Positions 5,617 to 6,122 of a stretch of 64,000 nt of DNA are shown one piece after another (the first letter of the stretch is position 1; every line of letters starts with the position of its first letter). Origin of the DNA: Falsirhodobacter sp. alg1 (GTDB taxonomy: Bacteria; Pseudomonadota; Alphaproteobacteria; Rhodobacterales; Rhodobacteraceae). Made by a program: the position numbers and the translations under genes. The notes under the pieces were generated by a model, which saw only the letters and a program-made list of their open reading frames with translations, ran no database searches and had not been told where the DNA came from. Where the stretch lies: the NCBI RefSeq assembly GCF_000739715.2, contig NZ_BBJC02000001.1:759315-823314 (forward strand). Reading direction: 5' to 3'.

Positions 5617-5625
5617 ACCTATGAA

Positions 5626-5654
5626 AAAGCCCGCCGGTCTGGCGGGCTTTTTTT
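5626..5654. terminator. Rho-independent terminator, shared by gshB and hemP
   Basis: Perfect 10-bp arms AAAGCCCGCC (5626-5635) and GGCGGGCTTT (5641-5650) with a 5-base loop and a T run after it; the reverse strand also ends in a U-rich tail. It lies between convergent gshB and hemP and can serve both; it ends within the last codons of hemP. Confidence 0.9.
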
Positions 5655-5814
5655 ATTTCGTCAGGATCAGTTTGCCAGCGCGGGTGATCCGTAGGCTGTA
5701 GATCTGGCCGTTGAGCACGATCCGCGCCTGATTGCCGCCATCCGTCAGGTGGTTGGCATCATGTACCGGCATGCTGTTGTCGATAAAGGCGGAAATATCG
5801 GTCATGGCATTCAT
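5653..5814 (-). CDS. hemP: Hemin uptake protein HemP
   Basis: 53 residues. The C-terminal block ARIVLNGQIYSLRITRAGK and the preceding HDANHLTDGG match the HemP family, small proteins linked to haem/iron uptake and normally iron-regulated. Biochemical function is not well defined. ATG at 5814 is preferred over ATG at 5805: a GGAG lies about 8 bases upstream of it. That ribosome-binding site sits in the last codons of a 42-codon ORF whose stop is two bases before the hemP start, suggesting translational coupling. No TonB receptor or haem ABC transporter genes are adjacent. Confidence 0.88.
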   Translation of the reverse strand: MNAMTDISAFIDNSMPVHDANHLTDGGNQARIVLNGQIYSLRITRAGKLILTK

Positions 5815-5816
5815 GC

Positions 5817-5945
5817 TTAACGCTCCATTCTGTCGATAAGGGCAGAAAACCCGAAGCCCGGGGCAATACCTGCCAGAAACTGGCGCAGCATATCCCACGG
5901 CCCCGGATCGGGGGTTTGGCGAGTATCGGCGTGATTTTCATACAT
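5817..5945 (-). CDS. Hypothetical small protein upstream of hemP (42 aa)
   Basis: An ATG at 5945 opens a 42-codon frame ending TAA at 5817, two bases before the hemP start. The peptide begins MYENHADTRQTPDPGP and continues with an amphipathic/hydrophobic segment WDMLRQFLAGIAPGFGFSAL before ending IDRMER. The gap of only two bases, and the hemP ribosome-binding site lying inside its last codons, argue that it is translated and coupled to hemP. The ribosome-binding site of the small ORF itself is weak. I do not recognise a family. It could instead be the transcribed leader of hemP. Confidence 0.5.
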   Translation of the reverse strand: MYENHADTRQTPDPGPWDMLRQFLAGIAPGFGFSALIDRMER

Positions 5946-5977
5946 GGGACACCCGCAGGAAAGGAATCGGTTGGTTG

Positions 5978-6002
5978 CTCAACTCTATGCCCTAAAGTTG
6001 AG
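5978..6002. promoter_or_regulatory. Inverted repeat, possible operator upstream of the hemP unit
   Basis: Perfect 7-bp arms CTCAACT (5978-5984) and AGTTGAG (5996-6002) separated by 11 bases, in the roughly 180-base gap between the hemP unit (minus) and the DUF533 gene (plus). It is 33 bases upstream of the small-ORF start. hemP genes are usually under iron control, so an iron-responsive operator is a reasonable inference, but the sequence is not a clear Fur, Irr or RirA consensus. Apart from this and the small ORF I see nothing else in 5815-6122. Confidence 0.3.
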
Positions 6003-6122
6003 TGAAAAGGTCGGTTGTGTAAAGCCTTATTCTTTTACTCGGAAATAAAAGCGGCGTTTCGTCGCGTTTGGTTCGGGCCAGGCACACCCCATATCGGAAG
6101 GGACCTGTGAATGGAGGACGCT

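Follow-up and report, generated by a model that had tools for sequence, protein, structure and literature searches.

hemP of Falsirhodobacter sp. alg1 is preceded by a 42-codon ORF (the small ORF), which the pattern of substitutions among relatives shows to be a genuine protein-coding cistron, under coding selection. Members of its family were found solely in front of hemP, in Rhodobacteraceae. The best explanation taken as a whole, i.e., a two-cistron unit in which the small ORF is coding, hemP is coupled to it and the peptide perhaps works with HemP, is considered probable. The initial annotation of this DNA had drawn attention to the frame; two points go beyond it: (i) the small ORF is a family-wide cistron; (ii) many relatives have an RNA hairpin ahead of the small ORF. 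All coordinates given without a locus name refer to the window, i.e., the whole stretch of 64,000 nucleotides that was analysed.

Small ORF and hemP in the window

The small ORF is read on the minus strand from ATG 5945 to a TAA stop (5817..5945, 42 codons plus TAA) and is translated as MYENHADTRQTPDPGPWDMLRQFLAGIAPGFGFSALIDRMER, i.e., 42 aa. Its recognition is based on the frame itself, same-genus conservation, profile specificity and codon-position bias. The TAA (5819-5817) is followed by GC and then by the ATG of hemP (5814-5812); the stop-start junction TAA-GC-ATG (5812..5819, minus strand) thus has a gap of +2 nt, and the frame and its distance from hemP are those initially proposed. The Shine-Dalgarno of hemP, GGAG (5826-5823, minus strand; duplex energy −6.2 kcal/mol), does lie in the last codons of the small ORF, as had been stated, where it overlaps the codons for Met-Glu-Arg. 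The small ORF is itself preceded by GGGTG (5950..5954, minus strand), a weak Shine-Dalgarno-like site (duplex −3.8 kcal/mol). The "Pro-rich start" attributed to the peptide is a fair description of residues 12-16 (P-D-P-G-P) and not of the rest.

hemP (5653..5814, minus strand; 53 aa plus stop) is a member of the HemP/HmuP family (PF10636, E 4.1e-16, 59 bits for a cut-off of 25). The nearest named hemP among the matches listed belongs to Falsirhodobacter sp. 20TX0035, with 89% identity. Downstream, a terminator-like inverted repeat, rich in G+C and flanked by A/T runs (5623..5650, no strand assigned), lies between hemP and the convergent gshB; Rfam matches at this repeat were sub-threshold only. 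Upstream, a DUF533 gene diverges.

The small ORF was also said to be unannotated, small iron-regulated peptides being easily missed by gene callers, and it is indeed either absent or called "hypothetical protein" in the records examined. A gene annotated in the latter way stands at this place in 3/5 plasmid records (Phaeobacter G2, Tateyamaria omphalii and Roseivivax THAF197b); that of Roseivivax is below the profile limit and resembles the members by eye only. The two Paracoccus plasmid records list no gene there, their gene tables being incomplete.

Conservation and specificity of the family

The 42-mer was searched in 61 genomes and found a match ahead of hemP in the other 6/6 same-genus genomes, at E≤8.2e-4 in five of them and only at E 0.217 in the remaining one (G003). 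hemP itself is present in 7/7 same-genus genomes and in 90/149 genomes of the family sample.

In total 194 hemP loci were collected. hemP was located by pattern in 192 of them, and 182 distinct copies were used: 2 loci without pattern-located hemP, 2 with an incomplete upstream region and 8 duplicates were left out. A profile restricted to the last 40 residues, with the seven genus members as seeds, was searched against 245 hemP-upstream ORFs and 11,884 others. It replaced a first profile because the translated leader hairpin had been picked up by the latter. At the first round, 31 ORFs (7 seeds and 24 others) were obtained at E≤0.01, every one of them immediately before hemP, and the 11,884 others gave none; the numbers upstream vs. 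elsewhere were 42 vs. 1 at E≤0.1 and 55 vs. 18 at E≤10. At the sixth round they were 70 vs. 0 (E≤0.01), 81 vs. 0 (E≤1) and 88 vs. 26 (E≤10). After iteration the small ORF is thus recognised at E≤1 in 81/182 distinct hemP copies, of which 80 were kept for the geometry (L040, with no start giving 30-62 aa, was left out). In the other 101 copies the profile recognises no member, about ten of these copies having what by eye looks like a remote one; HemP can therefore do without the small protein. In Cereibacter, to which the R. sphaeroides group belongs, the small ORF is present in 5/5 genomes searched, so that a well-studied laboratory genus can be used.

The class sample comprised 289 genomes, four of them listed as same-family. 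Among these four, the window genome and G409 were matched, G183 (which has hemP) and G085 were not; the match of G409 (E 0.010) is at the hemP start and is the sole new same-family match of this sample. At E≤0.1, 52/289 genomes were matched, about 29 being expected from the per-genome E-values, i.e., an agreement within about twofold. Fifty of the matching genomes are outside the family, and four of these have E-values (0.003-0.0075, the best being 0.003) lower than that of G409. Among genomes with a listed hemP, none of the outside-family matches is at hemP. Most of them cover only a part of the profile and many are inside longer frames (not each was inspected); relatives outside Rhodobacteraceae were thus rejected as chance matches. 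In 29 class loci (one same-family), hemP was located by pattern in 26; an ORF of at least 30 aa ends near hemP in 10/26, and the C-terminal motif described below was seen by eye in none.

Coding selection and predicted structure

Substitutions were counted in ten independent close pairs, on a nucleotide-only alignment from which the last five codons (stop included) were excluded. The numbers at codon positions 1, 2 and 3 are 66, 30 and 97, respectively (p=9e-7 for the third position and 1.9e-8 for the second). The 90 nt upstream in the same ten pairs, taken as a control, have no such pattern (22, 19 and 28; p=0.13). The initial annotation had named a frame not conserved upstream of hemP, or frameshifted in close relatives, as the outcome that would speak against the ORF: the frame is conserved there, and the indels of the ten close pairs (2/2) are multiples of three. 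When 18 pairs were aligned through the protein, pS is 0.38 and pN is 0.20 (pN/pS about 0.5), it being noted that, for the more distant pairs, a protein-guided alignment is biased towards conserved residues. Selection on the small peptide is mild.

The small peptide is fast-evolving, with a free N-terminus and a free length (36-59 aa among the members). Its C-terminus is characterized by the motif L-E-x-h-h-D-R-h-E, found by pattern in 41/74 members, and the conserved residues use varied synonymous codons. Taken with the codon-position bias, this points to selection on the peptide and not merely on the Shine-Dalgarno of hemP.

No known family was recognised: the window 42-mer matched 0 families in Pfam and NCBIfam, and 71 members gave only single-member matches (best E 0.03), the best E against PDB being 0.85. 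The AlphaFold2 model, built with 69 members, has two helices (16-27 and 32-41) and is of moderate confidence (pLDDT 71.6, pTM 0.33). Both predicted helices are amphipathic by their moment (0.54 and 0.65). The product is most likely a small helical-hairpin protein co-translated with HemP.

Probable coupling with hemP

Among the 80 members kept, 74 overlap hemP by 4 nt (−4, ATGA), the hemP start nearest to −4 being chosen where several candidates existed; where a single candidate is in range, the proportion is 28/29. The +2 gap of the window is rare (2/80), and so is its TAA stop (2/80). An ATGA at hemP is partly trivial, since, among the 102 copies that do not belong to the 80, 45 likewise have an ORF of at least 25 aa that ends at the hemP ATGA.

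Coupling is reported to occur at about −8 to +10 nt and to be nearly lost by about 20 nt (PMC10666635). The two frames are on the same strand and the +2 of the window is inside this range, in agreement with the initial remark that the spacing is typical of translational coupling. The median Shine-Dalgarno energies of hemP and of the small ORF are identical (−6.4 and −6.4 kcal/mol). The hemP start is predicted to be harder to open than that of the small ORF in 61/80 copies, the window not being one of them. Since the Shine-Dalgarno of hemP equals that of the small ORF in strength, coupling may be partial. Translation of hemP is thus likely, from this geometry, to be coupled to the small ORF, not necessarily in an absolute manner.

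Two known systems are close to this arrangement. Coupled ATGA-overlap pairs, reported to be enriched for subunits of one complex (PMC10666635), have the same 4-nt overlap or very short gap, and their downstream start adjoins the upstream stop; here, however, the upstream gene encodes a small protein of 36-59 aa without family name, in a regulatory leader, and reinitiation is putative. In Mycobacterium tuberculosis, a uORF with an AUGA overlap is located behind a B12 riboswitch and is described as essential for PPE2 expression (PMC11260477). The order of elements (leader RNA element, short ORF, main ORF with AUGA overlap) is the same, and in M. tuberculosis the main ORF needs translation of the uORF. 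On the contrary, the peptide is another one, and the leader element of hemP has no Rfam match and is absent in the window.

Hairpin in hemP leaders

The hemP leaders of the family often contain AGCC direct repeats just after the promoter: AGCCA..AGCC is present in 110/182 leaders (10.3 expected). As controls, the stretch further upstream gave 7/179 (9.0 expected) and outside-family hemP leaders gave 2/25 (1.0 expected). The repeats are also present in the Cereibacter leaders that were read.

In 109 leaders taken with no stem filter and no by-eye choice, covariation is seen in a single register of the stem that the repeats flank. The first pair is formed in 75/109 leaders with six pair types (45.6 expected, 0/2000 shuffles), the next four pairs are reached in at most 1/2000 shuffles and the two outer pairs in 0/2000, and the two neighbouring registers have nothing comparable (best 65/2000). 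This unfiltered test agrees with a first set and strengthens the case for the hairpin. The first set consisted of 106 pattern-matched leaders (stem of at least 3 pairs), reduced to 90 by removing 16 by eye (A1, R1). In it (89-90 leaders), 82.6% of the cells pair vs. 70.2 in shuffles, with 125 double changes vs. 57, figures that are inflated by the stem filter, GCCA and AGCC being moreover invariant by construction. Examples in relatives, numbered within their own loci, are L051 (1792-1835, minus strand), L112 (1266-1317, minus strand) and L176 (2397-2448, plus strand). In 20 leader loci, just two tRNAs reached the gathering score of Rfam; nothing did so in the window between 5500 and 6200.

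The leader of the window itself (5946..5980, minus strand) has no AGCCA..AGCC near the ORF, and model R1 gives 1.7 bits at 5944-5982. By eye, gagcaaccaacc...gggtgtccc in this leader may be a remnant of the hairpin. The hairpin is absent from the leaders of the window and of its four nearest relatives, all of which keep the ORF (one distant match was removed). These four relatives have AGGTG or AGGAA at the position of the GGGTG of the window; in the five leaders (L031-L035) this stretch is seen by eye to occupy the place of the 3' half of the hairpin, and it is perhaps derived from it.

Conversely, 44 leaders outside the 80 carry the hairpin (e.g., L065, L074 and L077). The ORF/hairpin contingency is 46/34/44/58; that ORF and hairpin go together was rejected, being not significant (p=0.07). 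The small ORF and the hairpin are separate modules. It was observed besides that the distance from the hairpin to the HemP tyrosine has a median of 238 in these 44 leaders vs. 337 in the 46 with the ORF, i.e., about 100 nt shorter, as if a whole cistron had been gained or lost.

The repeats equal the core of the HPRE (HmuP-responsive element) given for chuR and are placed in the leader of hemP itself, so HemP may control its own message. The HPRE was reportedly defined by Amarelle in 2019. It is described as a direct repeat with a wide distribution in alpha- and betaproteobacteria (PMC9241770), and that of the chuR leader is quoted as CCCGCAAGCCAGCCGACAGCCAGCCAGCG (PMC9131926). Like the 5' leaders of shmR and chuR, which are HemP/HmuP-controlled genes, the hemP leaders contain AGCC direct repeats. 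The HPRE is, however, reported before receptor genes, whereas here the repeats are in the leader of hemP and flank a covarying stem, and the clade of the window is without them.

By analogy with the HPRE, this suggests that HemP may act on its own mRNA through the hairpin, and a covarying HPRE-like structure in this position supports an RNA-level target and autogenous control. Two reports count against such an action: HemP/HmuP is described as DNA-binding (PMC9241770), and for ChuP of C. violaceum the promoter in front of chuP is given as not regulated by ChuP (PMC9131926). HemP/HmuP proteins are presented as small haem-binding regulators whose action is disputed, i.e., DNA-level activator vs. 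post-transcriptional regulator depending on the species (PMC9131926, PMC11442138), and as a repressor in Stenotrophomonas (PMC9241770). In the open-licence literature no mention of the small ORF or of the hairpin was found; subscription papers may know them.

AGCCA..AGCC was also found in haem-receptor leaders, in 11/30 of the class (1.2 expected) and 4/30 of the family (1.3 expected). Since the stem between these repeats is not clearly better than in shuffles, the hairpin is claimed for hemP leaders only. When R1 was searched in 61 genomes, 45/61 were matched at E≤1, mostly not at hemP. HPRE-like hairpins away from hemP were rejected as chance: of the 30 loci listed, 5 are hemP leaders, 5 are too short and 20 overlap long open frames on either strand, this overlap being a weak test in such DNA.

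Proposed mechanism and alternatives

Under iron limitation the promoter would be derepressed, on the model of R. sphaeroides. Ribosomes would load at the small ORF as the first of two cistrons and, on terminating, would reinitiate on hemP with the help of the Shine-Dalgarno in the last codons of the small ORF; the small protein and HemP would therefore be made together. The small peptide, predicted to be an amphipathic helical hairpin ending in L-E-x-h-h-D-R-h-E, would act on or with HemP as a partner, stabiliser or antagonist. This last step is our best guess, made with less certainty than the others. In many family members (the window and its nearest relatives excepted), a hairpin at the head of the message would let HemP act on its own mRNA. 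Both suggestions of the initial annotation, a partner of HemP or a leader peptide, may still hold, except that a classical attenuation leader is unlikely as there are no regulatory codon runs in the window ORF. The adjacent conserved small protein gives a handle, as a candidate for a missing HemP partner.

The peptide could also be idle, hemP translation being set by the passage of ribosomes and their termination at the hemP start. The tight −4 spacing (74/80), the fact that roughly half of the hemP copies lack a recognised member and the precedent of the PPE2 uORF in M. tuberculosis (PMC11260477) all fit with this explanation, which is possible although doubtful: conservation is highest at second codon positions, the C-terminal motif persists although its codons vary, and a sequence serving only as a track for ribosomes would leave amino acids unconstrained at 10 or more codons from the stop. 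At the other extreme, the small protein would be a dedicated partner of HemP, produced in step with it as an antagonist or as a companion that loads haem, and in many Rhodobacteraceae the HPRE-like hairpin would give HemP post-transcriptional autocontrol at the small-ORF start, passed to hemP by coupling. Such a complete scheme is speculative and rather unlikely to hold in all its parts.

The position in a regulated leader would suit an amino-acid-type attenuation leader peptide or a misannotated N-terminal extension of HemP. Both are very improbable: (i) the window ORF has no codon runs, and the N-terminal sequence and length are not fixed; (ii) the small ORF and hemP are read in different frames, both in the window and in the −4 copies, and within the hemP frame of the searched loci the family profile matches nothing at E≤1. 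A fused ancestor with HemP was rejected on the ground of the same lack of profile match. Finally, the small ORF might be a chance open frame with no function: short frames abound locally (8 kb are overlapped by 90 ORFs of 30 aa or more), and any A that follows an ATG creates an overlapping TGA by itself. This hardly deserves credit in view of the specificity (31 ORFs, or 24 without the seeds, vs. 0), the codon-position bias, the in-frame indels and the presence in 7/7 same-genus genomes.

Putative promoter and proposed iron regulation

Iron regulation of hemP is reported for R. sphaeroides (PMC3413700, PMC4618611). According to these sources, the promoter of hemP (RSP_6006) is bound by IscR, the iscR mutant has raised levels of hemP, a list of iron-limitation genes gives hemP at 34.7-fold, and it is the first gene of hemP-irpA-bfd-bfr. 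The passages of these two papers on the Iron-Rhodo-box and the IscR regulon mention no ORF or hairpin between the promoter and hemP.

By analogy, the same regulation is proposed for the window strain. From the sequence and a by-eye comparison of leaders, a putative promoter TTTACA-N17-CAACTT (5995..6023, minus strand), with the Iron-Rhodo-box-like stretch cgaccttttcactcaa within it, would be located upstream of the small ORF; the Iron-Rhodo-box is that of Rodionov 2006 as cited in PMC4618611. A near-perfect inverted repeat with one G-U, ctcaacttt-agggcat-agagttgag (5978-6002, minus strand), spans the putative −10 and start region and folds as a hairpin; inspection by eye of the leaders from the other six same-genus genomes showed none.

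It must be added that the window genome (G000) has no TIGR01785 haem receptor at E≤1e-60 and keeps hemP nevertheless. In the family sample, TIGR01785 is found in 39/149 genomes at E≤1e-60 (22 over the cut-off), i.e., it is rarer than hemP (90/149). HemP may thus serve other targets.
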